Origin: Gammaproteobacteria bacterium
GTDB taxonomy: Bacteria; Pseudomonadota; Gammaproteobacteria; UBA6429; Thiohalophilaceae
Assembly: GCA_026196045.1 (NCBI GenBank)
Contig: JAPHRJ010000029.1
Span: forward strand, 1-40,631
Direction: 5' to 3'
Length of the DNA: 40,631 nucleotides
Shown here piece by piece: positions 12,637 to 33,107 of this stretch. The notes under the pieces were generated by a model. That model saw nothing but the letters and a program-made list of their open reading frames with translations, made no database searches and was not told where the DNA came from. Both the position numbers and the translations under genes were made by a program. How positions within the stretch are numbered: position 1 is the first letter of the stretch; the number at the start of each line of letters is the position of its first letter.

Positions 12637-13143
12637 ATGAAACCCGTCTCCAGGTTTAGTTTGCCAACAATGACATCTCGTTTCCTTTTGTTTTCCTTCA
12701 TCTGGTGGATACTAACCGATGGTGCCGTGAATTCCTGGTGGATTGGTATACCAGCGGTTATTCTGGCTACATTGACAAGTGTTGCCCTGATCCCACCGGT
12801 GAAATTGGTCTGGTATGAGGTTGTCAGGTTTGTACCTTATTTTATTTTTCGCTCTGTGACTGGTGGTTTTGATGTGGCTAAGCGAGCATTTCATCCTGCT
12901 ATACCTATTGCGCCAGATCTGGTTGAGTACCCGTTACGATTGTCGCCAGGATTACCTCAGGTTTTTCTGATTAACACAATTAGTTTACTCCCCGGTACCT
13001 TAACTGCTGAATTAAACCAGAATATTCTGAAAGTACATGTGCTTGATGCACAGGCAAATTTTAAAGCTGAAATAGAAGCAGTGGAACAGCGTGTGGCTCG
13101 CATGTTTAGTGTAAACCTCACAAATCGTGGCGGAGGAGAATGA
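12637..13143 (+). CDS. mrpE: Na+/H+ antiporter subunit E (MrpE/MnhE/MbhA-like)
   Basis: A 168-residue membrane protein with the MrpE signature LRLSPGLPQVFLINTISLLPGTLTAEL and two or three N-terminal membrane helices. MrpE is a small accessory subunit of the multisubunit Mrp cation/proton antiporter in the inner membrane. The ATG at 12637 (MKPVSRFSLP) is chosen over an upstream frame start at 12565 because AAGGGAA lies about seven bases before it. It opens the operon, and the next short gene begins one base after its stop. The E-F-G order with E first is like archaeal Mbh and related Mrp operons rather than the classic A-to-G order. Confidence 0.9.
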   Translation: MKPVSRFSLPTMTSRFLLFSFIWWILTDGAVNSWWIGIPAVILATLTSVALIPPVKLVWYEVVRFVPYFIFRSVTGGFDVAKRAFHPAIPIAPDLVEYPLRLSPGLPQVFLINTISLLPGTLTAELNQNILKVHVLDAQANFKAEIEAVEQRVARMFSVNLTNRGGGE

Positions 13144-13144
13144 A

Positions 13145-13369
13145 ATGAACAGGTTTAAAAATATCCTTTGTGTTGTAGAGCCGGGTGAAAAAGCCAGGTT
13201 AGCACTGGCAAAACAAATTGATGCCAATCTGGTTGTTATGGGGGCAGTGGCTCGAACAGGAATTCCTGGATTCGTTATGGGTAATACCGCAGAGACCATT
13301 CTTAATCAGCTCGATTGCTCAATACTTGCGATCAAACCTCCAGGTTTTAAATCACCTGTTACCTTATAG
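13145..13369 (+). CDS. Short universal-stress-protein (UspE-like) ORF, apparently an internal-deletion relic
   Basis: The 74-residue product joins a Usp-like first strand (FKNILCVVEPGEKARLALA) directly to a Usp C-terminal half (KQIDANLVVMGAVARTGIPG, then FVMGNTAETILNQLDCSILAIKP). In full Usp and UspE proteins these two parts are 100-250 residues apart, so the middle seems to have been lost in frame. The G-x2-to-6-G/GNT nucleotide-loop style residues remain, but the fold cannot be complete. GGAGGAGA lies about eight bases before the ATG at 13145, so it is probably still translated. An upstream GTG at 13127 overlaps that site and is less likely. It sits between mrpE and mrpF. It could be a relic that maintains translation coupling or a small regulatory protein. 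Confidence 0.7.
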   Translation: MNRFKNILCVVEPGEKARLALAKQIDANLVVMGAVARTGIPGFVMGNTAETILNQLDCSILAIKPPGFKSPVTL

Positions 13370-13379
13370 GATTGGTTAT

Positions 13380-13640
13380 ATGCAAACGCTTTACTTTGCT
13401 CTGGCACTTTTCCTTCTACTCAATCTCTTTGCCGGTATGTGGCGCATCCTTAAAGGACCTACTGCCGCTGATCGGATGCTGGCTGCACAGTTATTTGGTA
13501 CGACTTCAGTGGGTGTACTGCTATTACTTGCACAAGCCTCAGCTAATACAGTGTTACATGATGTTGCATTAGTCTTCTCGCTTTTAGCCGCATTAACCTC
13601 TGTGGCATTTGTGCGACGTGCCTGGTTAAGCAAGGAATAA
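13380..13640 (+). CDS. mrpF: Na+/H+ antiporter subunit F (MrpF/MbhB-like)
   Basis: An 86-residue protein with three membrane helices, matching MrpF in size. The motif FAGMWRILKGPTAADRMLAAQLFGT (charged R-x-x-x-G-P-T-A-x-D-R between helices 1 and 2) is the family hallmark. The frame is open far upstream, but the ATG at 13380 gives the standard short N terminus MQTLYFALALFLLL and lies just after the Usp-like stop. It works as a small membrane subunit of the Mrp antiporter complex. It is followed at once by mrpG. Confidence 0.9.
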   Translation: MQTLYFALALFLLLNLFAGMWRILKGPTAADRMLAAQLFGTTSVGVLLLLAQASANTVLHDVALVFSLLAALTSVAFVRRAWLSKE

Positions 13641-13647
13641 GAATGTG

Positions 13648-13944
13648 ATGCTTACTGAATATGTTAGTGCCGTATTGCTTGTTGCAGGTGCCATATTTTA
13701 TCTTGCGGGTACTATAGGTTTATTGCGTTTCCCTGATGTTTATACTCGGCTTCATGCTTTAACTAAAGCTGATAACCTGGGTTTAGGTCTGATCGTGATT
13801 GGATTATCTCTCCAGGCCAGCTCCTTTGCAGCAGCAGGTAAATTATTCCTGATTTGGTTGTTGGTACTGTTAGCGGGAGCAAGTGTGTCTCATCTGGTTG
13901 CCAGGGCAGCATTACATAAGGGAGTTCATTTATGGAAGCGTTAG
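13648..13944 (+). CDS. mrpG: Na+/H+ antiporter subunit G (MrpG/MbhC-like)
   Basis: A 98-residue, three-helix membrane protein. GTIGLLRFPDVYTRLHALTKADNLGLGLIVIG is the standard MrpG signature. GTG at 13645 and ATG at 13648 are adjacent in-frame starts; AAGGAA lies upstream of both and the ATG is preferred. The C-terminal end overlaps the start of the next gene by 13 bases, a sign of a tightly packed operon. It is an accessory subunit of the same antiporter complex. Confidence 0.9.
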   Translation: MLTEYVSAVLLVAGAIFYLAGTIGLLRFPDVYTRLHALTKADNLGLGLIVIGLSLQASSFAAAGKLFLIWLLVLLAGASVSHLVARAALHKGVHLWKR

Positions 13945-14897
13945 CCCTGCTGCAAGATGTATTTGATATCCTGCTTGGTTTTGGGTTGTTGTGGTTAGCC
14001 TGGTTAGCACTTTTTTCTCTGGATTTATTTAGATCCATTGTATCGTTTATTTCATTTGGATTATTGATGGCGATTATCTGGGTAAGGCTGGATGCGCCAG
14101 ATGTTGCTCTTGCTGAAGCGGCTATTGGCGCAGGATTAACTGGTGCCTTATTTTTAGCGGCATTTGCAAAACTGCAACCTGCTTCAGTTAACGGGAAAGG
14201 CAGCAGCATAAATCCGCAAAAGCAATCTTCCAGGAAACAACTTCTACGCTGGTTACCTGCACTTATCATGCTATGGATCGCATCAGGATTAACCATTGCA
14301 ATTTTAGCTTTACCACCTCATGCGACAGGGTTGACTTCAGAGGTGACCTCGAATCTTACTGCAAGTGGTGTGAGCAATCCTGTTACCGCCGTGCTGCTTA
14401 ACTTTCGTGGTTACGACACCCTGTTGGAGATAGTCGTGTTATTACTGGCATTATTAGCTGTCTGGTCTATTGGTAGCTCAGTACCGAGCATCGAATCTGA
14501 GCCTGGCCCTGTACTTGATACCTTATCTCGTTTGCTGGTGCCAATATTGATCATGGTTTCTGCTTACCTTTTATGGGTTGGAGCCCATGCGCCTGGTGGC
14601 GCATTTCAGGCTGGGGCTGTGTTAGGTGCAGCGGGGGTATTGTTAGTTTTATCAGGTTGGAAACTTTATCCTGGGCTCGAAGGTTTTCCTTTACGACTTG
14701 TACTTACGGCTGGGTCTATCACCTTTGTTGTGATTGCTATACTAACAATGCTAGTCAGCGGGACATTTATGCAATTTCCTCCAGCGCAGGCCAGTATTCT
14801 AATCCTTATTCTTGAAATGGTGGCGACCCTTTCCATTGGTGTAACGTTGGCCGCACTTTTTATTGGAAGTCCACCTACCGATATAAAAAAATTATGA
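13932..14897 (+). CDS. Fused MbhD (DUF4040)-MbhE-MnhB antiporter subunit
   Basis: The 321-residue protein joins three units that are often separate or attached to MrpA. Residues about 1-80 match MbhD/DUF4040 (FGLLMAIIWVRLDAPDVALAEAAIGAGLTGALFL). About 105-185 match MbhE (GVSNPVTAVLLNFRGYDTLLEIVVLLLAL). About 190-315 match MnhB/MrpB (LLVPILIMVSAYLLWVGAHAPGGAFQAGAVLGAAGVLLVLSG). In classic Mrp systems MbhD/MbhE correspond to the C-terminal part of MrpA; here they are cut from any NuoL-like part and fused to MrpB. Roughly nine or ten membrane helices are expected. The Asp/Glu-rich D-A-P-D-V-A-L-A-E-A motif is likely important for proton or sodium movement. It shares ATGA with mrpC. Confidence 0.87.
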   Translation: MEALALLQDVFDILLGFGLLWLAWLALFSLDLFRSIVSFISFGLLMAIIWVRLDAPDVALAEAAIGAGLTGALFLAAFAKLQPASVNGKGSSINPQKQSSRKQLLRWLPALIMLWIASGLTIAILALPPHATGLTSEVTSNLTASGVSNPVTAVLLNFRGYDTLLEIVVLLLALLAVWSIGSSVPSIESEPGPVLDTLSRLLVPILIMVSAYLLWVGAHAPGGAFQAGAVLGAAGVLLVLSGWKLYPGLEGFPLRLVLTAGSITFVVIAILTMLVSGTFMQFPPAQASILILILEMVATLSIGVTLAALFIGSPPTDIKKL

Positions 14898-15202
14898 ATA
14901 CGGTATTTCTCTATGCACTGGTGGGTATAGGATTATTTTGCCTTGGATTATTTGCTTTAATTGTGCAGGCCCACTTACTACGAAAGATACTGGCAATCAA
15001 CATAATGGGTAGCGGGGTTTTTCTTATATTGGTTGCATTGGCCAGGCGTACTGAAGGAGGCATCCCTGATCCTGTTCCTCATGCCATGGTGATTACTGGT
15101 ATTGTTGTTGCCGTATCCGCGACCGCACTGGCACTGGTTATGATCCTGAAGGTAACAGAGAGCAGTGGACAACCCGAGTTTCCTGACGAGGAAAGTAAGT
15201 AG
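14894..15202 (+). CDS. mrpC: Na+/H+ antiporter subunit C (MrpC/MbhG, NuoK-like)
   Basis: A 102-residue protein with three membrane helices, homologous to NuoK. Signature regions are LRKILAINIMGSGVFLILVAL and DPVPHAMVITGIVVAVSATALALVMIL, the latter the typical P-x-P-H-A-x-V-I-T-G-I-V motif of MrpC. It begins at the ATGA overlap with the fused B subunit, and its stop is four bases before the next gene. It forms part of the membrane arm of the antiporter. Confidence 0.93.
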   Translation: MNTVFLYALVGIGLFCLGLFALIVQAHLLRKILAINIMGSGVFLILVALARRTEGGIPDPVPHAMVITGIVVAVSATALALVMILKVTESSGQPEFPDEESK

Positions 15203-15206
15203 ACTG

Positions 15207-16667
15207 ATGGGGATAACATTTATAGATTTCCCCTGGGCTATTGCACTCATCCTGTTGCCGTTAACAGGAGGGTTAAGCTGTTTTCTTTGGCCTTCTGTCA
15301 GCAAAATACTGGGTCTAGTTACAGTAATTGGTGTCATGCTGTCGGCGACAGGTCTTGGCTGGTTGGTAATAGATAAAGGTGTATATCACTATCTTGTCGG
15401 TGGTTGGGGTGCCCCGTTAGGTATTGAGCTGTATGTTGATGGTTTGAGTTTACTCATGCTGATGGTAACTGCCCTGGTTGCATTAGGTGTCAGCATCTAT
15501 TCAATACATTATTTTGAACTCAGTTATCAGCGTCGGTTCTGGCCACTCTGGCTATTTTTGTTGACAGCACTTAATGCCCTGTTTCTTTCGGCAGATATTT
15601 TTAACCTTTATGTTACCCTGGAACTGATGGGATTAGCGGCGGTGGCATTAGCCACGCTAACCGGTAGCCACGATGCCTTCACAGCGGCGATGCGTTATCT
15701 ATTGGCAACCTTATTAGGCTCCCTTGCATTTCTATTTGGTGTGGTGTTGCTGTATCACAGTTTTGGTAGTTTGGATATTGCAGTCCTAAGTGAGAGATTC
15801 GAATCTAACATAACGGCCTGGGCGGCATTTGGACTCATAAGTGCAGGACTTGTATTAAAAACAGCCCTGTTTCCAATGCATTTCTGGTTGCCTCCTGCAC
15901 ATGCCAACGCACCCGCACCTGTTAGTGCAGTGTTATCCGCACTGGTCGTAAAAGCTTCCTTCTATATTTTACTGCGCTTATGGCTAGAGATATTTAGTCA
16001 ACTTGATACCGATGTCGATATTTTGTTTGGGTTTTTGGGGTCTATTGCAATTATATGGGGGTCTTTGCAGGCTTTACGTCAGACACGAATCAAGTTGTTA
16101 GTGGCGTACTCAACGGTAGCTCAGGTGGGTTACCTGTTCCTTGCATTTCCGTTAGCGGAGAAAGTGGGTGTTACGGCATGGAGTGCTGCCGTGTATCTGA
16201 TACTTTCTCATGCCCTGGCTAAGTCTGCCATGTTTCTGGCGGCGGGTAATTTGTTGCGTTTTGGAGGCCATGATCGTATTGCCGATTTAGACCGGGTAGC
16301 ACAACGTTTACCGATTACCGTGGCTGCATTTGCATTGGCCGGTGTAAGTATTATGGGATTACCGCCAAGTGGTGGTTTTATCAGTAAGTGGTTGCTGCTT
16401 CAATCAGCTCTGGTTCAGAGTCAATGGGGGCTGGTTGGCGTCATGCTTATTGGGGGAGTATTGGCAGCCGCGTATATCTTTAAAGTACTGGGACGTGCTT
16501 TTACACAGGCACCCTTACCACATGAGCCAGGTGTTGTACCTGCAACAATGGAGTGGGCCGCACTATTACTTGCAGGTGGTGCTATCTTACTCGGGTTTTT
16601 TGCGTCTGAAATACTGGCAATCATTGAAATAGGCAGTCCATTTGGAGCCGGTGAGGTTAAGTTATGA
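15207..16667 (+). CDS. mrpD: Antiporter-like subunit 1 (MrpD/NuoN family)
   Basis: A 486-residue protein with about 14 membrane helices of the proton-conducting NuoL/M/N type. The key charged residues are in place: Glu139 in helix 5 (LYVTLELMGLAAVAL), Lys218 in helix 7 (LVLKTALFPMHFWLPPAHAN), His225, and Lys249 in helix 8 (SALVVKASFYILL). The ATG at 15207 (MGITFIDFPW) follows the mrpC stop by four bases and is chosen over 15165, which would overlap mrpC. It ends in an ATGA overlap with subunit 2. It is the best MrpD match in the operon; no MrpA-length protein exists here. Confidence 0.88.
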   Translation: MGITFIDFPWAIALILLPLTGGLSCFLWPSVSKILGLVTVIGVMLSATGLGWLVIDKGVYHYLVGGWGAPLGIELYVDGLSLLMLMVTALVALGVSIYSIHYFELSYQRRFWPLWLFLLTALNALFLSADIFNLYVTLELMGLAAVALATLTGSHDAFTAAMRYLLATLLGSLAFLFGVVLLYHSFGSLDIAVLSERFESNITAWAAFGLISAGLVLKTALFPMHFWLPPAHANAPAPVSAVLSALVVKASFYILLRLWLEIFSQLDTDVDILFGFLGSIAIIWGSLQALRQTRIKLLVAYSTVAQVGYLFLAFPLAEKVGVTAWSAAVYLILSHALAKSAMFLAAGNLLRFGGHDRIADLDRVAQRLPITVAAFALAGVSIMGLPPSGGFISKWLLLQSALVQSQWGLVGVMLIGGVLAAAYIFKVLGRAFTQAPLPHEPGVVPATMEWAALLLAGGAILLGFFASEILAIIEIGSPFGAGEVKL

Positions 16668-18163
16668 ACTGGAATGCATGGATCCCGCTGTTGGTGGTTG
16701 CCAGTTCGTTGTTGCCGGGGTTAATCATATTCAGGTTGCCAGAAGAAAGAGTACGAACACGTATTACACTCAACCTGATTGGTGCATTTTTAAAACTGGT
16801 ATTAGTCGGCTGGATGTTATGGGGCGTTTACCAGGGACAACATTTTGAAACACGCCTGGCGCTATTACCTGATCTGGATCTTGTGTTACGTGCGGGTCCT
16901 TTATCGTTAATTTTTGTTAGTCTTTCTACGGTGCTTTGGCTCGTTACAACTGTTTATGCTATTGGTTACCTGGAAAATTCACCCCATCGAAGTCGTTTTT
17001 TTGGATTTTTCAGTTTATGCGTTACGGCTACTGTCGGTATAGCACTATCCGGAAACCTGATCACCTTTTTGATCTTCTATGAATTGCTGACGTTGTCTAC
17101 TTACCCCCTGATTGTTCATCGAGGTACTGAAGAGGCGCGCCGGGCGGGACAAACATACCTTGCATATACCATTTTTGGTGGTGCCTTATTATTATTGGCG
17201 ACAGTGTGGCTTTATACTCTGACGGGTTCTCTTGAGTTTACACCACGGGGATTTATTCATGGGCTAGGAGAAGAACACCGCACGGCTTTAATTATTATTT
17301 TTGCATTGTTTATCACTGGCTTTGGTGTGAAGGCAGCACTGGTGCCCTTGCATGGCTGGCTACCTCAGGCCATGATTGCTCCGGCACCAGTTAGTGCTCT
17401 ATTACATGCTGTGGCGGTAGTCAAAGCGGGCGCATTCGGAATCATACGGGTGGTTTATGATGTATTTGGTATCGAGTCAGCCGCTGAATTAGGAGTGATG
17501 TCTCCGTTGGCATGGTTAGCCGCCGTGACCATTATTTATGGATCTTTACGGGCTTTGTTTCAGAATGATTTGAAACGTCGACTCGCATTCTCGACCATCA
17601 GCCAGGTGTCCTATATTACACTGGGAGTGGCCATTGCTGGGCCTATTGCCACAATAGGTGGTGTCGTACATCTGGTACATCAAGGTATCATGAAAATTAC
17701 CTTGTTTTTCTGCGCGGGTAATTTGGCAGAAACGCTGGGTATTCATAAAATAAGTGAAATGAATGGTGTCGGCCATCGCATGCCCTGGACTATGGCCGCC
17801 TTCACTGTTGGTGCGCTCGGCATGATCGGTGTACCACCGATTGCGGGTTTTGTTAGTAAATGGTATCTCGGGCTTGGGGCACTGGAAGTAGGAGAAGGGT
17901 GGGTAATGTTCGTGCTTGCGGGCAGTAGTTTACTCAATGCTGCGTATTTCTTACCAATTTTGCATCGTATCTGGTTCAGAAAACAAACGGCGGCCTGGCC
18001 ACATGAACACAACTTTGGTAACAAGGAGACCGCCTGGGCATTATTGCTGCCTCCCGTTGTGACAGCGTTGATGGCGTTAGCTGCAGGTTTGGTGGCTTCC
18101 GCTCCATTCAGTCCTCTGGAATGGGCACAACTGATTGCTCAGCGTGAGTTTTATCAGCCATGA
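16664..18163 (+). CDS. Antiporter-like subunit 2 (MrpD/NuoM/NuoL family)
   Basis: A 499-residue membrane protein, the second NuoL/M/N-type subunit. Conserved charges are intact: Glu140 (LIFYELLTLSTYPLI), Lys223 (GFGVKAALVPLHGWLP), His230, and Lys254 (HAVAVVKAGAFGIIRVV). The stretch APAPVSALLHAV is a strong signature of this family. It starts in the ATGA overlap with subunit 1 and ends with the same overlap into subunit 3. Together with subunit 1 it would give two proton/cation half-channels. Whether it fills the role of the missing N-terminal part of MrpA is not settled by sequence reading; NuoM-like and MrpD-like labels are both possible. Confidence 0.87.
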   Translation: MNWNAWIPLLVVASSLLPGLIIFRLPEERVRTRITLNLIGAFLKLVLVGWMLWGVYQGQHFETRLALLPDLDLVLRAGPLSLIFVSLSTVLWLVTTVYAIGYLENSPHRSRFFGFFSLCVTATVGIALSGNLITFLIFYELLTLSTYPLIVHRGTEEARRAGQTYLAYTIFGGALLLLATVWLYTLTGSLEFTPRGFIHGLGEEHRTALIIIFALFITGFGVKAALVPLHGWLPQAMIAPAPVSALLHAVAVVKAGAFGIIRVVYDVFGIESAAELGVMSPLAWLAAVTIIYGSLRALFQNDLKRRLAFSTISQVSYITLGVAIAGPIATIGGVVHLVHQGIMKITLFFCAGNLAETLGIHKISEMNGVGHRMPWTMAAFTVGALGMIGVPPIAGFVSKWYLGLGALEVGEGWVMFVLAGSSLLNAAYFLPILHRIWFRKQTAAWPHEHNFGNKETAWALLLPPVVTALMALAAGLVASAPFSPLEWAQLIAQREFYQP

Positions 18164-19455
18164 GTAACGAAATTTATAATATTTTCCTTGGCTTTGTTGT
18201 GGCCTGGCCATTACTTCTGACTATTCCGGCTTTACATACGCGTCTACCATGGCCATGTTTTTGGGCTATTTTTCCAGCGGCTGTGTTAATGATATTACCG
18301 GGAGAAGCTTTCGTGGCTCCGTCCTGGTTTCTGTTTGGAACGGGGCTTGGTGTCAACAGTGAAGCTCGCTGGATCCTCGCTATGACTGTTATCGTTTGGA
18401 GTATGACGGTTGCTGTTGTTAAATTCTCAAGTGAACAAACTTACAATTTTCGCACTCCGTTCTTTTTTCTTACTCTTGCCGGTAACCTTGGTGCAGTATT
18501 GGCAACTGATCTGGTTGTATTTGTTTGTGCCTCAACACTGATGGGTTACAGTTTTTATGGATTGTTGCTACAAAGAAGAAATGAATCATCATATCAAGCA
18601 GGAAAAATTTATCTTATTTTCCTGATTATTGCCGACCTGACATTATTTGATGCTCTCTTGCTGGCCGCATTTGAAACAGATGATTTAAGGTTTGAGTCGG
18701 TACGGCAAGCTATGACAAGCACAGCAGATACTTCTATAACCTACCTATGGTTAGTGTTAATCGGATTTGGGCTCAAAGCGGGTGTTTGGCCATTTCATCT
18801 ATGGCTAATAGAAACATTCAAGTACAGTTCGTGGCCAGCACGTTTGTTGCTGGGTAGTGTTCCAGTTGCGGTGGGATTACTTGGTATTGTGCGATGGGCA
18901 CCTCTTGGAGGAGCAACTTATTATATTCCAGGATTAATTTACCAGGGTCTGGGTATTGTTGCCCTGCTTTATATAATAATAAGGGCTTTTAGTCGCATTC
19001 AAATAACAGAAATTCCAGCCTGGACTATTGTTGCAGTAACAGGCCTGTGTAATGTTGCTTTAGGAGTCGGATTGGCATACCCATCTTTATGGCATAAATA
19101 CCAGTATCTGGTGTATCCATTAATTGCATTAACAGGCGTCTTCACAATGTTTCTTAGTTATGGTCTTAGCCGTACTAAAGATGAAAGCATTTCTTCAACT
19201 CATCGATCTTCTTTAAATATGTTCAAAGCCTGGTCTGAGAACTGGGCAGGTTTAATGCAACAAAGGAAGCAAAATATAAAAACCAGGTTTGTGTTACTTT
19301 GGGGCACTGTGGTTCTAAAGTTTAAGTTTCTTCATTGTTTTCAAAAATGGGGTATAGCTCCAGGAGTTTTAGAACAGCAGTTGCAGTACTGGCCTAATGC
19401 GATCACATTATTTTTAATACTGGTGATCGTAGTAGCATTATCAGTATTCTTATGA
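18160..19455 (+). CDS. Divergent antiporter-like subunit 3 (NuoL/M/N fold, degenerate)
   Basis: A 431-residue membrane protein that keeps the family pattern but has lost key charges. The helix 7 region GFGLKAGVWPFHLWLIETFKYSSW retains Lys206 and His213. The helix 5 site reads CASTLMGYSFYG, with Thr126 where Glu is expected, and the helix 8 site reads LLLGSVPVAVGLLG, with Ala237 where Lys is expected. It is also shorter by about 60 residues. A charged stretch with many Arg/Lys (about residues 330-385) precedes a final membrane helix, which may resemble a lateral anchor. It is coupled to subunit 2 by ATGA and ends the operon. It may be a structural or regulatory subunit rather than a pump. Confidence 0.78.
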   Translation: MSNEIYNIFLGFVVAWPLLLTIPALHTRLPWPCFWAIFPAAVLMILPGEAFVAPSWFLFGTGLGVNSEARWILAMTVIVWSMTVAVVKFSSEQTYNFRTPFFFLTLAGNLGAVLATDLVVFVCASTLMGYSFYGLLLQRRNESSYQAGKIYLIFLIIADLTLFDALLLAAFETDDLRFESVRQAMTSTADTSITYLWLVLIGFGLKAGVWPFHLWLIETFKYSSWPARLLLGSVPVAVGLLGIVRWAPLGGATYYIPGLIYQGLGIVALLYIIIRAFSRIQITEIPAWTIVAVTGLCNVALGVGLAYPSLWHKYQYLVYPLIALTGVFTMFLSYGLSRTKDESISSTHRSSLNMFKAWSENWAGLMQQRKQNIKTRFVLLWGTVVLKFKFLHCFQKWGIAPGVLEQQLQYWPNAITLFLILVIVVALSVFL

Positions 19456-20746: not shown

Positions 20747-21019
20747 ATGGTTTCTGTAAAACGACTGGTTCTTGATATTCTTAAACCTCATCAGCCAAAC
20801 GCCCTGGAGTTTTCTGGTACCCTGGCCGAAGTTGGTGATGACTACTATGTAAGTTTGACCGTAATTGAGATGGATGAAAATACTGAAACGGTTCAAGTCG
20901 TAATTGAAGGGGGCAATATCGATTTTGAAGCCATTCAACTGGCGATATCGAACATGAGTGGCTCTCTACACAGTATAGATGTTGTGGAGGTACAAAGCAC
21001 ACCCTCTAATAACAATTAG
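20747..21019 (+). CDS. DUF211-family protein
   Basis: A 90-residue soluble protein. The pattern VKRLVLDILKPHQPNALEF, then VIEMDENTETVQVVIEGGNI and a final SGSLHSIDVVEV is the DUF211 signature, a small ferredoxin-like fold known mostly from archaea. Function is unknown; small ferredoxin-fold proteins often sense or bind metals or small ligands. A GAGGAG ribosome-binding site sits six bases before the ATG, suggesting strong translation. It is the first gene in a row with a VIT1/CCC1-family protein, a P-type ATPase and an ion channel. DUF211 next to a VIT1-like protein is also seen in archaea, so this pair may have been transferred together. Confidence 0.85.
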   Translation: MVSVKRLVLDILKPHQPNALEFSGTLAEVGDDYYVSLTVIEMDENTETVQVVIEGGNIDFEAIQLAISNMSGSLHSIDVVEVQSTPSNNN

Positions 21020-21042
21020 ATGATTTTTAAAAACATACTGTC

Positions 21043-21627
21043 ATGAAACCATTAAGTCAGATACGATTTCTGCTACGAATTACCCGAACTCACGGTATCA
21101 TTCGTCGCTATTTCGTTGTGAATGGTTTTGATGGTGCCCTCACTATGCTCGGGATTATTGTCGGTTTTCATTTTAGTGCACCAGCAAGCTTATCTGTAAT
21201 TATTAGTGCCTGTATTGGGGCTGCCATTGCTTTGGGCGTCAGCGGCGTAAGTAGTGCCTATGTCAGTGAGCAAGCAGAACGACGTCGAGCACTAAGTAAA
21301 CTGGAAGATGCTATGGTTACTGATTTGCAGGAAAGTGCACATGGCGACGCTGCGCGTTGGGTGCCCTGGTATATTGCGCTGGTCAATGGATCCGCGCCTT
21401 TGGTTATTTCGCTGTTAATTATCACCCCCTTATGGTTGTCAAATTCAGGTACACATCTGTTTATTTCACCGCTTTACGCAGCCATTATTATTGCCCTCAT
21501 ACTTATTTTTTTCTTTGGCGTTTTTCTCGGTCATATCTCCGGTATTTCATGGCTCCGAAGTGGTGTTCAGACTGTGTTAATCGCACTGCTTACGATCCTG
21601 CTAATTTATTTATTTACAGGGGTATAA
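21043..21627 (+). CDS. VIT1/CCC1-family (TIGR00267-like) membrane protein
   Basis: A 194-residue protein with about five membrane helices. YFVVNGFDGALTMLGIIVGFHF and ALGVSGVSSAYVSEQAERRR are the hallmarks of the VIT1/CCC1 family, whose members move Fe2+ or Mn2+ against protons. The loop carries an acidic/basic segment (LSKLEDAMVTDLQESAHGDA), shorter than the metal-binding loop of plant VIT1. Size and motif fit the archaeal-type TIGR00267 subgroup. It lies 23 bases after the DUF211 gene, and its stop is one base before the ATPase start. A role in divalent metal efflux or storage with the ATPase is inferred; the transported ion is not known. Confidence 0.82.
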   Translation: MKPLSQIRFLLRITRTHGIIRRYFVVNGFDGALTMLGIIVGFHFSAPASLSVIISACIGAAIALGVSGVSSAYVSEQAERRRALSKLEDAMVTDLQESAHGDAARWVPWYIALVNGSAPLVISLLIITPLWLSNSGTHLFISPLYAAIIIALILIFFFGVFLGHISGISWLRSGVQTVLIALLTILLIYLFTGV

Positions 21628-21628
21628 C

Positions 21629-24277
21629 ATGGTGCAAGTTAATTGGCACACTCTTGAGACTGATGAAGCGCTGAAGCGTCTTGAAAGCTCAGAATATGGC
21701 CTGGCGGCTGCCAGGGCTCAACAATGCCTGCTTGAGCAGGGCCCTAACGTTATGCCAGAAACACGGTCGCGTTCCCTGTTTAAAATGTTGTTGGGTCAAT
21801 TTACCGATTTTATGATCCTGGTGTTGCTGGTGGCGGCACTAATATCCGGTTTCATAGGTGAACCCCAGGACACCATTGCTATCCTGGTTATTGTTTTACT
21901 CAATGCAATTATTGGTACAGTTCAGGAATATCGAGCGGATCGAGCTGTTGCTGCACTACGTGAAATGGCCGTTCCCGATGCCCGAGTGATCCGTGATGGT
22001 GAAGCTGTCACAGTGGCCACATCTGATCTGGTGCAAGGGGATATCGTTTTACTGGAGACAGGTAATATAGTGCCAGCCGATCTACGGCTTATCGAAACAG
22101 AAGAAATGCAAACAGATGAGTCAGCTCTGACCGGTGAATCACTAGCTGTTGAAAAAAATGAAGCCGTACTGACTGAAGCAGACCTGCCGTTGGGTGACCG
22201 ATCTAATCTTGCATTTAAGAGCAGCATGATTACCCGAGGGCGAGGCAAGGGTGTGGTGATCGCCACTGGACTGAATACTGAAATAGGGCACATTGCTGAA
22301 TTACTTCGTAGCGAAAAGAGTGTCAAAACACCACTACAGAAACGTTTAACAAGATTTGGACGTTATCTTGCGATGGCAGTATTGGCGATCTGTAGTGTGG
22401 TGTTTATTGCGGGTTTGCTACAGGGCCAACCTGTCATGTTGATGTTTCTCACTGCAGTGAGCCTTGCTGTAGCGGCCATACCTGAAGCATTACCGGCAGT
22501 AGTGACCGTGTCGCTTGCTTTCGGTGCACATAAATTAATTCGCCAAAATGCGTTGGTGCGTAATTTACCGGCTGTTGAAACGCTGGGTTCGGTCACTTAC
22601 ATTTGCGCGGATAAAACCGGTACGTTAACGCAAAATCAGATGACTGCAGAATTGTTTTTTGTCGACGGACAACGTCAAACGTCATTAAGTGAAGTTGATA
22701 CCCAATCACCGTTAGTGGATCTGGGTTATGCAATGGCATTAAGCAATGATGTTGAAGAGATGGATGGTAAACCAACAGGTGAAGCAACTGAGTTGGCCCT
22801 GTTTGAAGCCGCATTTTCGGCAGGATTTGATAAACAGAAATTAGAACAGGAAAAACCACGCCTGGCCGTTATCGCTTTTGATAGTGATCGTAAAAGGATG
22901 ACAACGCTTCATCAGCTGGATGCGGGTGTTGTGGCTTATATAAAGGGGGCACCGGAACAGGTACTCAGTCAATGTATTAATGCTTCCGGCATGGATGGCA
23001 TCATAGCATTTGATTCTGAGAAAGTGCTTGCTGAAGCGGAGCAGTTAGCGCAGGAAGGTTACCGAGTACTTGCGTTAGGAAAACGTGAATTTGATAAACT
23101 GCCAGAACCAGTTGCTTCCGCAGAGATTGAACAGCAACTTACATTTCTTGGCCTGGTTGCGTTGATTGACCCACCCCGACCAGAAGTTCCACAGGCTGTT
23201 GCTGACTGTCTGACGGCAGGTATTACCCCAGTGATGATCACTGGGGATCACCCGGGCACAGCTATGGTTATCGCCAGACGTCTGGGGATAACCGACAATG
23301 ATCAGGCTATGCTGACAGGTGATGAACTTGCCAAATTGTCTGATGATGAGTTTATCCCGATTGTAAAAAAAATACAGGTTTATGCCAGAGTTAGTCCGCA
23401 ACAAAAATTACGTATTGTAAAAGCGTTACAGTTGAACAATGAATTTGTAGCGATGACAGGTGATGGTGTAAATGATGCGCCTGCACTGAAACGAGCGGGT
23501 ATTGGAATTGCCATGGGGCAGAAGGGCACTGATGTTGCTCGCGAAGCAGCTGATATGGTCTTGCTGGATGACGATTTTAGCACCATTGTTCGAACGATCC
23601 GATCCGGGCGGCGAATATTTGATAACATCCGGAAATTTATTAAAGATACAATGAGTTCTAATTCTGGAGAAATCTGGACACTTTTTCTTGCCCCGTTTTT
23701 TGGTTTACCAATTCCTTTATTACCTATTCATATTTTATGGATCAATCTGGTCACCGATGGCTTACCTGGATTGGCCTTTACGGCTGAACCCGCAGAGCCA
23801 GGGATTATGCGTCGTCCACCCAGGCCGACAGATGAGAATATTTTTGCACACGGTATGTGGCAACACATTGTGTGGGTTGGCCTGTTTGTAGGCGGAATAT
23901 CTATTGCGTCACTAGCATGGGGAATTTCTCGAGGTGTTGAATATTGGCAAACCATTGTCTTTACCGTTTTAACCATATCACAGTTGTTTCATTCGTTAGC
24001 TGTGCGAAGTGAAACCGCATCATTATTTTCAATCGGTCTGTTTAGTAATCTACCAATGCTGGGTGCTGTAATTTTTACCATTCTTTTACAGATGGCGGTC
24101 ATTTATATGCCGTTATTAAATGGGATATTTCATACTCAGCCCTTACCTTTGTATGACCTGGCCGTTTGCTTCATGCTTTCATCACTCGTACTTTTTGCAG
24201 TAGAGATTGAAAAATTCCTGGTACGTAAAGGCTTAATTTATGTAAATACTTACAATAGAGTAAGTAATGGTGGTTAA
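21629..24277 (+). CDS. P2-type cation-transporting ATPase, Ca2+-ATPase-like
   Basis: An 882-residue P-type ATPase with all core motifs: TGES in the actuator domain (about residue 168), the phosphorylated Asp328 in ICADKTGTLTQNQ, KGAPEQVL in the nucleotide domain, and MTGDGVNDAPALKRAG near the hinge. The helix 4 motif is IPEALP. Helix 5 has SSNSGEIW and helix 6 has WINLVTDGLPGLAF; the Asn/Glu and Asn/Thr/Asp residues are those that bind Ca2+ in SERCA, so Ca2+ or Mn2+ export is the best guess. An N-terminal cation-ATPase domain (WHTLETDEALKRLES) is present. It starts one base after the VIT1-like stop, clearly in the same operon. Confidence 0.92.
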   Translation: MVQVNWHTLETDEALKRLESSEYGLAAARAQQCLLEQGPNVMPETRSRSLFKMLLGQFTDFMILVLLVAALISGFIGEPQDTIAILVIVLLNAIIGTVQEYRADRAVAALREMAVPDARVIRDGEAVTVATSDLVQGDIVLLETGNIVPADLRLIETEEMQTDESALTGESLAVEKNEAVLTEADLPLGDRSNLAFKSSMITRGRGKGVVIATGLNTEIGHIAELLRSEKSVKTPLQKRLTRFGRYLAMAVLAICSVVFIAGLLQGQPVMLMFLTAVSLAVAAIPEALPAVVTVSLAFGAHKLIRQNALVRNLPAVETLGSVTYICADKTGTLTQNQMTAELFFVDGQRQTSLSEVDTQSPLVDLGYAMALSNDVEEMDGKPTGEATELALFEAAFSAGFDKQKLEQEKPRLAVIAFDSDRKRMTTLHQLDAGVVAYIKGAPEQVLSQCINASGMDGIIAFDSEKVLAEAEQLAQEGYRVLALGKREFDKLPEPVASAEIEQQLTFLGLVALIDPPRPEVPQAVADCLTAGITPVMITGDHPGTAMVIARRLGITDNDQAMLTGDELAKLSDDEFIPIVKKIQVYARVSPQQKLRIVKALQLNNEFVAMTGDGVNDAPALKRAGIGIAMGQKGTDVAREAADMVLLDDDFSTIVRTIRSGRRIFDNIRKFIKDTMSSNSGEIWTLFLAPFFGLPIPLLPIHILWINLVTDGLPGLAFTAEPAEPGIMRRPPRPTDENIFAHGMWQHIVWVGLFVGGISIASLAWGISRGVEYWQTIVFTVLTISQLFHSLAVRSETASLFSIGLFSNLPMLGAVIFTILLQMAVIYMPLLNGIFHTQPLPLYDLAVCFMLSSLVLFAVEIEKFLVRKGLIYVNTYNRVSNGG

Positions 24278-24307
24278 TGAAATATTTTTGCATAAGAGAT
24301 TAATGTT

Positions 24308-24817
24308 ATGAAGAAACGACTACTGAATAATAAAAAATTACGTTTAAGAAGGTTTATTGATGATATTTCTACTCATACGCCTTTTACAAAAATGCTTTTT
24401 TTACTGGTTTTTCTCTGGTTGTTATTTTCTTCAGGGCTGTATTATTTTGAGAGCCTAACTGAAGGTGCAAGTATAACCTCATTTGGTGAAGCGCTGTATT
24501 GGGGAGTGGCGGCATTTTCTACTGCGGGAATAGCTGATACACCAAAATCCAGTGTTGCACAGTTGCTTGGTGGGGTCTGGATAGTGATTGGGTCGGCTAT
24601 GTTTTTTGGGACTATTGTCGCAACGATTACTACTTACTTTATGCGCCCAATGCAACGACCCCATAAAAAAATTATTGAAACCATCGAATACAATCTTGAA
24701 CAGATGAATGACCTGACTGTTGAGGAACTTGATTTATTAAAGGAAACAGTTGATACATTAATCGTGCATGTAGAGCAACTCAAAGAAAAGCAATCCAGAA
24801 ATAAAGTTGCAAAATAA
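24308..24817 (+). CDS. Two-transmembrane ion channel protein with atypical filter
   Basis: A 169-residue protein with the layout TM1 (MLFLLVFLWLLFSSGLYYF), pore loop and TM2 (GGVWIVIGSAMFFGTIVATITTYF), as in the KcsA-like ion channel 2 family. The pore loop reads EALYWGVAAFSTAGIADTPKSS: where potassium channels have T-V-G-Y-G-D, this has T72-A-G-I-A-D77, so the second glycine is replaced by alanine. The C-terminal tail (about residues 118-165) is a likely coiled coil, rich in Leu, Glu and Lys, that could drive tetramer formation. It follows the P-type ATPase by 30 bases. Ion selectivity is uncertain; a K+ or non-selective cation channel is possible. Confidence 0.8.
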   Translation: MKKRLLNNKKLRLRRFIDDISTHTPFTKMLFLLVFLWLLFSSGLYYFESLTEGASITSFGEALYWGVAAFSTAGIADTPKSSVAQLLGGVWIVIGSAMFFGTIVATITTYFMRPMQRPHKKIIETIEYNLEQMNDLTVEELDLLKETVDTLIVHVEQLKEKQSRNKVAK

Positions 24818-30392: not shown

Positions 30393-33107
30393 TCATGTTT
30401 GTTGGCCAAATTTGGTGTATTTTCGCAGCAACAGCTTTTCTATCTCCACCAGTATTAGCACCGAAGACGTTACCGCGATGACACGCAGCCAGGCATCGAG
30501 GTTCATGTCGGTGGTGGCAAATAGCATTTGCATTGGGCCGAGATAGGTAAAACTCAGCTGGATTATTAGCAACAGGCCAATGGCGTAGAGCGCATAACGG
30601 TTGCCGAATAGTCCCTCAAAAGTCAGTGCTGGTGCCAGCAGATAGCGGGCACTGAACAGGTAAAATATTTCGAACATCACCACGGTATTCACGGCCACGG
30701 TGCGTGCCAGTTCGATGCTGGCACCGTGATCCCGTTCCCACAGGAACAGCCCGAAGGTGCCGGTGACGATGATTAGCGAGACAAAGATGATACGCCAGAC
30801 AAGGAAGCCGGAGAGGATGGGCTCTTTGGGATTTCGCGGTGGCCGTTGCATGACGTTACGTTCAGCGGGTTCGAAGGCCAGGGTTAACGCGAGAGTCACT
30901 GCGGTGATCATGTTGATCCACAGGATCTGGGCCGGGGTGATAGGGAGCATTCGTCCCATAATGATAGCCGCAATAATGATGAGGGCTTCGCCACCATTAG
31001 TTGGCAGAATAAAAAGGATTGATTTTTTCAGATTATCGTAGACAGTACGACCTTCTTCCACGGCGTGGGCAATGGAGGCAAAGTTGTCATCGGTCAATAC
31101 CATCTCAGCAGACTCTTTGGCTACCTCAGTTCCTTTAAGTCCCATGGCTACACCAACATCGGCACGCTTGAGTGCGGGTGCATCGTTGACCCCGTCGCCA
31201 GTCATGGAAACCACTTCTCCGCTAGCCTGTAATGCAGTGACTAACTGTAATTTCTGTTCCGGCGAGACACGGGCGAAGATATCGGAACGTTGTACCGCAT
31301 CCTGCAACTGCTCTTCGTTATAGGCTTCAAGTTCGGTGCCATTAACCACAGTGACCCCGTCGCCTATGCCCATCATCGTACCGATGGCACGGGCGGTGAT
31401 AGCGTGGTCACCGGTGATCATCTTCACGCGGATACCAGCCGACTGGCAGGCATGAACCGATGCCGTCGCTTCTTCACGGGGTGGATCGATGATACCGACC
31501 ACGCCCAGCAGGGTAAGGCCATCTTCCACATCATTAAAGGCAAGGCTTTGATGTTCGGCCGCCGTCGGCTTGAAGGCGATCGCCAGCAGCCGTTGGCCAC
31601 GCGTAGCCATGGCGTGCATGTGGGTTTCCCAGTAGGCCTTATCCAGCGGAACATCCTCACCGCGCATCCGCTGTTTGTGGCACATTTCCAGTACTCGTTC
31701 TGGTGCACCTTTGAGATAGATAAAGCCATGGCCTGTGTGATCATGATGCAGGGTCGCCATGAAGCGGTGCTGCGACTCAAAGGGGATGGCATCGGTACGC
31801 GGATACTGGCTCTGGCAATAGTTGTGATCCAGACCTGCTTTTTGTGCCAGGGTGACCAGGGCACCTTCGGTCGGATCACCCTGTATTATCCATTGATTAT
31901 CGACCTCTGACAGGGTGGCATCGTTACAGAGCAGTGCTGCTTGAGCCACCTCATGCAGGAGCGGAAAACTTTCCGTTGTCACATCATTGCCATCGAGACT
32001 AAAGGTACCGTGAGGATCATAACCGGCACCGCTGACCTCACACAAACCGGTTCCGGTTGCCAAAGTCTGTACGGTCATTTCGTTACGCGTCAGGGTGCCG
32101 GTTTTGTCTGAACAGATAACCGTGACTGAACCTAAAGTCTCTACTGCCGGCAGGCGACGGATAATAGCGTGCTTTTTTGCCATACGCTGTACGCCGATAG
32201 CCAGCGTGATGGTCATGATGGCGGGTAGCCCTTCAGGAATACCCGCTACCGCCAGACCCACGGCGGCGAGGAACATGTCGCTGGCCGTAAAATTCTGTAG
32301 CAGCACGCCATAGGTAAAGGTTGCGGCGGCAATAACGCCGATGGCGAGGGTGAGCCATCGGGCGAAGGTAGCCATCTGCCGAAGTAGTGGTGTGGTGAGA
32401 ACCTGTACATGGCGCAACATACTACTGATACGGCCAATTTCGGTGTGGTCGCCAGTAGCAACAACAACACCCTGTCCCTGTCCATACGTAACCAGAGTAC
32501 CTGAGTAGGCGAGACACTTGCGATCGCCAATGGCTGCTTTTTCAATAGTCGTTTGAGTGGACTTTTCTGCCGGTACTGATTCGCCGGTGAGCATAGCTTC
32601 TTCAATACGTAGTTCACGGGTTTTGAACAGGCGCAGGTCTGCCGGGACTTTGTCACCAGACTGCAGTAACACAACATCACCAGGCACCAGCTGTTCAGCA
32701 GCAAGGCTGATGAACTTGCCGTTGCGTTTTACCATGGCCTGATGGGAGAGCATATTGCGGATAGCATCCAGGGCTTTTTCCGCTTTGCCTTCCTGAATGA
32801 AACCGATAATGGCATTAAGAACCACCACCCCAAAGATGACACCACTGTCTATCCAGTGTCCGAGTAAGGCAGTGACGCCACCAGCACCCAGCAGCACATA
32901 AATAAGGACGTTATGGAACTGTGCGAGAAAGCGAGCCAGAGGGCCTTTTTTCTTTGCGGGACGTAGTCGATTGGCACCGAACTCCTGCAAGCGGAGTTCA
33001 ATGTCCTGATCTGACAGGCCATCTACAGATGAAGACACCATCTGGAGTACTTTATCGGTATCGTAGCTGTGCCAGGGAGAGACCGTTGTGGAACTGTGAT
33101 CAATCAT
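30393..33107 (-). CDS. P2-type cation-transporting ATPase with altered helix 6
   Basis: A 904-residue P-type ATPase with TGESVPAEK, Asp334 in ICSDKTGTLTRNE, KGAPERVLE and MTGDGVNDAPALKRADVG. Helix 4 has IPEGLP, the classic P2 motif, and helix 5 has PTNGGEALIII, keeping Asn and Glu. Helix 6 reads WINMITAVTLALTLAFEP, so the Asp that binds Ca2+ in SERCA (in NLVTDGLP) is Ala here. The ion may therefore differ from Ca2+; the family also includes Na+, K+ or H+ pumps. AAGGAA lies about nine bases before the ATG. It lies between ackA and psiE in the same direction, with a gap of 72 bases before ackA, so co-transcription is likely. Confidence 0.9.
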   Translation of the reverse strand: MIDHSSTTVSPWHSYDTDKVLQMVSSSVDGLSDQDIELRLQEFGANRLRPAKKKGPLARFLAQFHNVLIYVLLGAGGVTALLGHWIDSGVIFGVVVLNAIIGFIQEGKAEKALDAIRNMLSHQAMVKRNGKFISLAAEQLVPGDVVLLQSGDKVPADLRLFKTRELRIEEAMLTGESVPAEKSTQTTIEKAAIGDRKCLAYSGTLVTYGQGQGVVVATGDHTEIGRISSMLRHVQVLTTPLLRQMATFARWLTLAIGVIAAATFTYGVLLQNFTASDMFLAAVGLAVAGIPEGLPAIMTITLAIGVQRMAKKHAIIRRLPAVETLGSVTVICSDKTGTLTRNEMTVQTLATGTGLCEVSGAGYDPHGTFSLDGNDVTTESFPLLHEVAQAALLCNDATLSEVDNQWIIQGDPTEGALVTLAQKAGLDHNYCQSQYPRTDAIPFESQHRFMATLHHDHTGHGFIYLKGAPERVLEMCHKQRMRGEDVPLDKAYWETHMHAMATRGQRLLAIAFKPTAAEHQSLAFNDVEDGLTLLGVVGIIDPPREEATASVHACQSAGIRVKMITGDHAITARAIGTMMGIGDGVTVVNGTELEAYNEEQLQDAVQRSDIFARVSPEQKLQLVTALQASGEVVSMTGDGVNDAPALKRADVGVAMGLKGTEVAKESAEMVLTDDNFASIAHAVEEGRTVYDNLKKSILFILPTNGGEALIIIAAIIMGRMLPITPAQILWINMITAVTLALTLAFEPAERNVMQRPPRNPKEPILSGFLVWRIIFVSLIIVTGTFGLFLWERDHGASIELARTVAVNTVVMFEIFYLFSARYLLAPALTFEGLFGNRYALYAIGLLLIIQLSFTYLGPMQMLFATTDMNLDAWLRVIAVTSSVLILVEIEKLLLRKYTKFGQQT

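Follow-up and report, generated by a model that had tools for sequence, protein, structure and literature searches.

An operon with three antiporter-like genes in a row raises the question of what the third one does. In the Gammaproteobacteria bacterium contig JAPHRJ010000029.1 (40,631 nt, referred to here as the window), the open reading frame at 18160–19455 follows two such genes, D1 and D2, and encodes a third antiporter-like subunit, termed here D3. A preliminary description of this DNA had pointed out that D3 is without two charged residues that D1 and D2 carry. What kind of subunit is D3, and what can it contribute to the complex?

The Mrp operon and the residues of D3

Pfam matches to mrpB, C, D, E, F and G, all found at 12637–18163, identify a Mrp (CPA3) operon, with the gene order E-F-G-B-C-D1-D2-D3 on the forward strand. 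It consists of mrpE (12637–13143, PF01899), mrpF (13380–13640, PF04066, start codon taken from the sequence), mrpG (13645–13944), a fused MbhD, MbhE and MnhB gene (13932–14897) equivalent to the MrpA C-domain plus MrpB, an MrpC-like gene (Oxidored_q2, 14894–15202), the MrpD-like D1 (15207–16667), D2 (16664–18163) and D3. No MrpA-type fusion, i.e. one with TM17–21 in a fused MbhD/MbhE-like C-domain, is present in the window operon; the C-domain equivalent is a separate gene joined to MnhB. Group 3 Mrp clusters, mrpFGBCDDAE in Microbacterium sp. TS-1 (PMC5703873), have the same gene set and order, in which a third large subunit accompanies a pair of D genes, the likeness being one of gene content. 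One related locus, L048, reads exactly F-G-B-C-D1-D2-D3-E, as in group 3. By its genes the window operon is thus most likely a group-3-like Mrp cation/proton antiporter with predicted exchange activity.

Between mrpE and mrpF (13145–13366, forward strand), 74 residues remain of the 3′ part of a universal-stress-protein (UspE-like) gene. A longer UspE-family gene of about 280–370 aa is found in eight related loci, in seven of these between E and F (e.g. L029:4392-5390).

D3 is an exact open reading frame of 431 aa with an ATG start on the forward strand. It matches PF00361 with 56.7 bits (cut-off 21.5), compared with 205–210 bits for the neighbours D1 and D2. D1 displays Glu138, Lys217, His224, Lys248, Lys338 and Lys393, and D2, a canonical antiporter-like subunit, Glu140, Lys223, His230, Lys254, Lys344 and Lys399. 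D3 was aligned with both in a three-way alignment, and in larger sets and with E. coli NuoL, NuoM and NuoN, using MAFFT in three modes. Thr126 (18535–18537) aligns with D1 Glu138, D2 Glu140 and Glu144, Glu144 and Glu133 of NuoL, NuoM and NuoN, respectively, and Ala237 (18868–18870) with D1 Lys248 and D2 Lys254. The replacement of the helix 5 Glu by Thr and of the helix 8 Lys by Ala, as first described, is borne out by the three-way and larger alignments, and so is the presence of Lys206 (18775–18777, TM7) and His213 (18796–18798, TM7b). A shifted alignment as the source of the missing residues is excluded by the three-way alignment, the MAFFT modes and hhalign.

The reading of two lost charges is nevertheless incomplete. 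Both sites have changed, but in place of the helix 5 Glu there is an acid on helix 6, Asp159 (18634–18636), which is matched by an acid in all of the 62 distinct D3 sequences compared. In the three MAFFT modes and hhalign, Asp159 corresponds to NuoL Asp178 and Lys206 to NuoL Lys229. D1 and D2 have Ser or Gly at the Asp159 site. Thus the presumed acid partner of the TM7 Lys in D3 is situated on helix 6 rather than being absent. The preliminary description also did not mention that the lysines of TM11 and TM12 are gone and that TM12–15 are deleted. The lysine in the motif HHxLxKxALF is the TM11 lysine (K342 of E. coli NuoL), and the TM12 lysine corresponds to NuoL K399. Compared with the TM5 Glu, TM7 Lys, TM8 Lys and TM12 Lys-or-Glu of the MrpD/NuoN/NuoM type, the window D3 has only the TM7 Lys; TM5 carries Thr, TM8 Ala and TM11 Thr, and the TM12 helix is absent. 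In addition, the NuoL Arg175 site is occupied by Ile156, and without the Arg the four-residue NuoL/DabB network is incomplete.

The protein is shorter, and the charged segment before its final helix, already observed, is a largely helical linker (residues 338–408, 19171–19383) with a net charge of +7. It leads to a predicted last transmembrane anchor (residues 411–430, 19390–19449).

Conservation, gene linkage and phylogeny of D3

A survey of 369 genomes of the class showed a D2 orthologue (E ≤ 1e-150) in 33, and D3 lies directly after D2 in 31 of these. In the two exceptions, D3 is on another contig (G116) or about 32 kb away (G092). D3 is also adjacent in all nine additional genomes from the phylum that have a strong D2 match. 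With both surveys combined, D3 of any form adjoins D2 in 40 of 42 genomes, and D3 is therefore a conserved family found directly downstream of D2. In other genomes a longer D3 of 550–600 aa occupies this position. A long D3 is also found with a Mrp operon on the Aminobacter plasmid pMET1, in the order D1-D2-D3, and on Rubrobacter plasmid 1 (L164), where D3 is placed ahead of D1. Because of the Rubrobacter order, the gene order of D3 is no proof of its position in the complex. At another locus (L092, G058:C1:1737066) a long D3 immediately follows a D1-like gene without an intervening D2. Five loci with distant D2 relatives (L159–L163) continue with a different third antiporter-like protein, in which the TM5 Glu is kept, the TM7 Lys is changed to Asn and the His to Asn or Ser, i.e. 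a change opposite to that of D3.

Over the 62 distinct D3 sequences, the TM5 site is never Glu (36 Thr, 18 Ala, 6 Ser, 2 Val), the TM6 site is always an acid (41 Asp, 21 Glu) and the TM7 site is Lys in 60 and Arg in 2; as these sequences come from an uneven set of sampled genomes and one pattern-based scan, the shares of the types are not frequencies. The Glu-type sequences are full-length. They carry the TM8 Lys in 18 of 21 cases, and where checked the TM11 and TM12 lysines as well, except for one TM11 Gln. The Asp type is missing the TM8, TM11 and TM12 lysines altogether, and most of its members are also without TM12–15; a few intermediates (L011, L012, L089) retain the length. Since 18 of the 21 full-length relatives have the lysine, the reported loss of the helix 8 Lys is specific to one D3 clade.

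In a tree made by a quick method with SH-aLRT support, all D3 stand apart from the remaining antiporter-like proteins, D1 and D2 included (support 100). The Asp-type D3 sequences are split from the rest by a single branch (99), and so, each by a branch of its own, are those of the short form (99) and of the intermediate form (99). L001, a protein encoded beside a DabA fragment in the same genome as the window, served only as an outgroup. With a root on the D1/D2 side, the long Glu type would be ancestral and the short form would have a single origin.

The short form is represented by 38 distinct proteins from a collection scan and genome searches. Most of them are gammaproteobacterial, and others belong to bins named Nitrospinaceae, Opitutaceae and Polarisedimenticolaceae, although names of metagenome-assembled genomes may be wrong. 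Thr and Ala at the two changed sites are largely conserved in these homologs from the same operon position. TM5 shows 31 Thr, 5 Ala and 2 Val, and TM8 27 Ala, 4 Thr, 4 Val, 2 Ser and 1 Ile; Glu on TM5 and Lys on TM8 are never found in the 38, which excludes a sporadic or chance loss. The Lys206 site is Lys in 36 and Arg in 2, the His213 site His in 31, Tyr in 4 and Gln in 3, and Asp159 is present in 38/38. Eleven columns are invariant. In operons with a short D3, D2 keeps the Glu, Lys, His and Lys in 32/32 cases and D1 in 20–21 of 21.

Mean pairwise identity of the short forms is highest for TM5 (74%), even though the Glu is missing there, followed by 55–60% for TM6–8, 43% for the last helix and 36–42% for TM9–11. 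The linker is the least conserved part (23%), with a median net charge of +5 in 37 orthologues. By the Nei-Gojobori method, dN/dS of D3 is 0.22–0.36 in six close pairs, compared with 0.085–0.13 for D2 in five close pairs. D3 is thus under purifying selection and functional, but less constrained than D2. The conserved short orthologues and the dN/dS values exclude a pseudogene.

Structural class and comparison with known systems

The AlphaFold model of the short D3 (pLDDT 83.7, pTM 0.81) shows 11 TM helices, a helical linker that is poorly predicted (pLDDT 47–60) and the last TM helix. Chains of NuoL, MrpD and NuoM match this model about equally (Z 31–36, rmsd 2.5–4.6 over 320–371 residues), and the range aligned with NuoL chains extends into the linker. 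The profile score and these Z values place D3 in the PF00361 antiporter fold. Distal HL-class chains are characterized by 16 TM helices with the lateral helix HL between TM15 and TM16, in place of which the window D3 has its 11 helices, linker and anchor; it does carry the TM6 acid of the MrpA N-domain/NuoL class at the aligned position. A long D3 (L080; pLDDT 82.2, pTM 0.84) was modelled with 16 TM helices and with a stretch resembling HL. Among the 50 best structural matches of this model there are only chains of the distal HL type (NuoL/ND5/NdhF, MrpA and MBS; Z 38–42), and the matches include the HL region. For this reason D3 is probably to be grouped with MrpA-N/NuoL. The short linker is possibly a relic of HL, as modelled in a region with pLDDT of 47–60. 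Loss of TM12–15 removes an even number of helices, and the linker and last helix would thereby keep their sidedness.

A sequence comparison of D3 with solved structures gave weak matches (best E = 2.9e-9, or 1.9e-12 with a profile) and no specific relative. D3 is similar to the MrpA N-domain and NuoL (ND5, Nqo12) in the PF00361 fold, the TM7 Lys and the TM6 acid at the Asp178 position; in the long form the 16 TM helices and the HL-like segment are shared too, and NuoL, ND5 and MrpA are its best matches. However, D3 differs from them in having neither the TM5 Glu nor an Arg at the Arg175 site, in the absence of TM12–15 and of the TM11 and TM12 lysines in the window clade, and in being a separate gene that is not fused to a MrpA C-domain. 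The interface ion pairs of NuoL are Lys229/Asp178 and Arg175/Glu144 (PMC13144422). In ND5, D179 forms a hydrogen bond to E145, and a water network connects it to K223 (PMC10396290), and in Nqo12/13 the changes E132Q/E123Q open the pair and lower the lateral proton barrier (PMC11496545).

DabB2 of the DAB2 CO2-uptake complex also has the TM5 Glu replaced, keeps the TM6 Asp and TM7 Lys, and has an altered C-terminal half. It retains Lys235/Asp185 with Ile in place of the Glu, I151E halves the growth yield, TM12–14 are rearranged and completed by a helical finger of DabA, and the TM11 lysine is needed (PMC13144422). Unlike DabB2, D3 is found in a Mrp operon with D1, D2 and small subunits and no adjacent DabA, and it is without TM12–15 and the TM11 lysine. 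DabA (PF10070), the pairing partner typical of DabB, was not found in the window operon. The same genome carries it in two PF10070 pieces, one on contig C96 and one on C48, and four further PF00361 genes are located beside them. These four and D1–D3 make up all seven PF00361 matches of the genome, and no separate nuoL, nuoM or nuoN is seen in this incomplete assembly. HycC of the E. coli formate hydrogenlyase is another example of a broken helix 5/helix 7 pair, but with the opposite loss; it keeps the Glu and lacks the Lys, has 16 TM helices and is part of a hydrogenase (PMC9474812). A literature search for a described third, truncated or ion-pair-altered Mrp antiporter subunit gave none, the literature coverage being partial and no proof of absence.

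Proposed role of D3

D3 appears, with a likelihood put slightly above even, to be a distal HL-type (MrpA N-domain/NuoL-like) end subunit of the group-3-like Mrp complex, which would cap D2 with a half channel and an Asp-Lys pair and would not conduct by itself. Across the family the helix 7 Lys would be paired with the helix 6 acid rather than with helix 5, as in DabB. In the window clade the loss of the TM8, TM11 and TM12 lysines and of TM12–15 would make the usual two-half-channel path impossible, and for this reason the short D3 presumably carries no protons through on its own. The conserved TM4–8 half would dock on the distal face of D2, sealing the end of the D2 channel, while the basic linker and last helix may brace the complex. 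According to the Mrp model, the TM5 Glu/TM7 Lys of an outer subunit acts as a sensor for the TM12 Lys of the inner subunit (PMC7419157). By analogy, D3 would sense D2 Lys399, with a permanently available Asp159–Lys206 pair that would either react to the charge of this terminal lysine or shift it. Ion exchange proper would be left to D1, D2 and the small subunits. Exceptions at the pair sites are the Arg for Lys206 in 2 of 62 sequences and the Gln or Tyr for His213 in 7 of 38 short forms. A more specific form of this proposal, that D3 is a single-half-channel subunit with a helix 6 acid/helix 7 Lys switch and a docking half, which terminates the D2 proton relay electrostatically, is offered tentatively and as the lesser possibility. 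Of the structural, inhibitory or ion-switch roles suggested at first, the structural and ion-switch ones still offer the best kind of explanation, and no finding speaks for an inhibitory role specifically.

The short D3 could instead be a pure scaffold that braces assembly or stability, with Asp159–Lys206 as a buried structural salt bridge and no coupling. Deletion of a half channel and of every channel lysine past TM7 would agree with this, as would selection about three times weaker than on D2 and the full residue set in D1 and D2. Yet conservation peaks at TM5–TM8 around the ion-pair site and not in the linker, the acid is kept in all 62 D3 sequences, highly divergent ones among them, and the Asp/Glu split tracks the channel lysines. 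A pure scaffold is considered rather unlikely. An active proton path in D3, with the missing half provided by another protein, has its precedent in DabB2, which likewise has no TM5 Glu and is completed by DabA. But the short D3 has lost the TM8 and TM11 lysines, whereas DabB2 requires the latter, no extra membrane gene recurs after D3 in the compared loci, and the DabA pieces of the genome are found away from this contig, next to PF00361 genes other than D1–D3. This alternative is improbable. Truncation, loss of key residues and evolution faster than that of D2 would also be expected of a decaying duplicate on its way out, but this is very hard to reconcile with the adjacency to D2 in nearly all genomes, dN/dS well under 1 and the invariant columns of the 38 short forms.

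The control that buried inter-subunit ion pairs exert on proton transfer remains a matter of debate for both complex I and Mrp, with arguments drawn chiefly from point mutants and simulations. One operon type here provides a natural series, consisting of D1/D2 with the TM5 Glu, long D3 with the TM6 acid and all lysines, and short D3 with the TM6 acid and no path, which allows the function of the ion pair to be examined separately from proton conduction. If the terminator reading is true, nature would have given direct evidence that complex I-type subunits can have their ion pair and their transmembrane proton path as separate modules. The findings on D3 also suggest a function for proteins annotated merely as complex I subunit 5 family protein.

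Downstream of the operon (20747–24817, forward strand) there are genes for a DUF211 protein, a VIT1-like membrane protein, a P-type ATPase and a two-helix ion channel. The window contains two P-type ATPases of the IIA Ca type, at 21629–24277 (forward strand) and 30396–33107 (reverse strand). Of 25 loci compared, 10 have an ATPase of this family next to the Mrp operon, a neighbourhood that hints, suggestively only, at a tie of Mrp to the export of Ca2+ or another cation.
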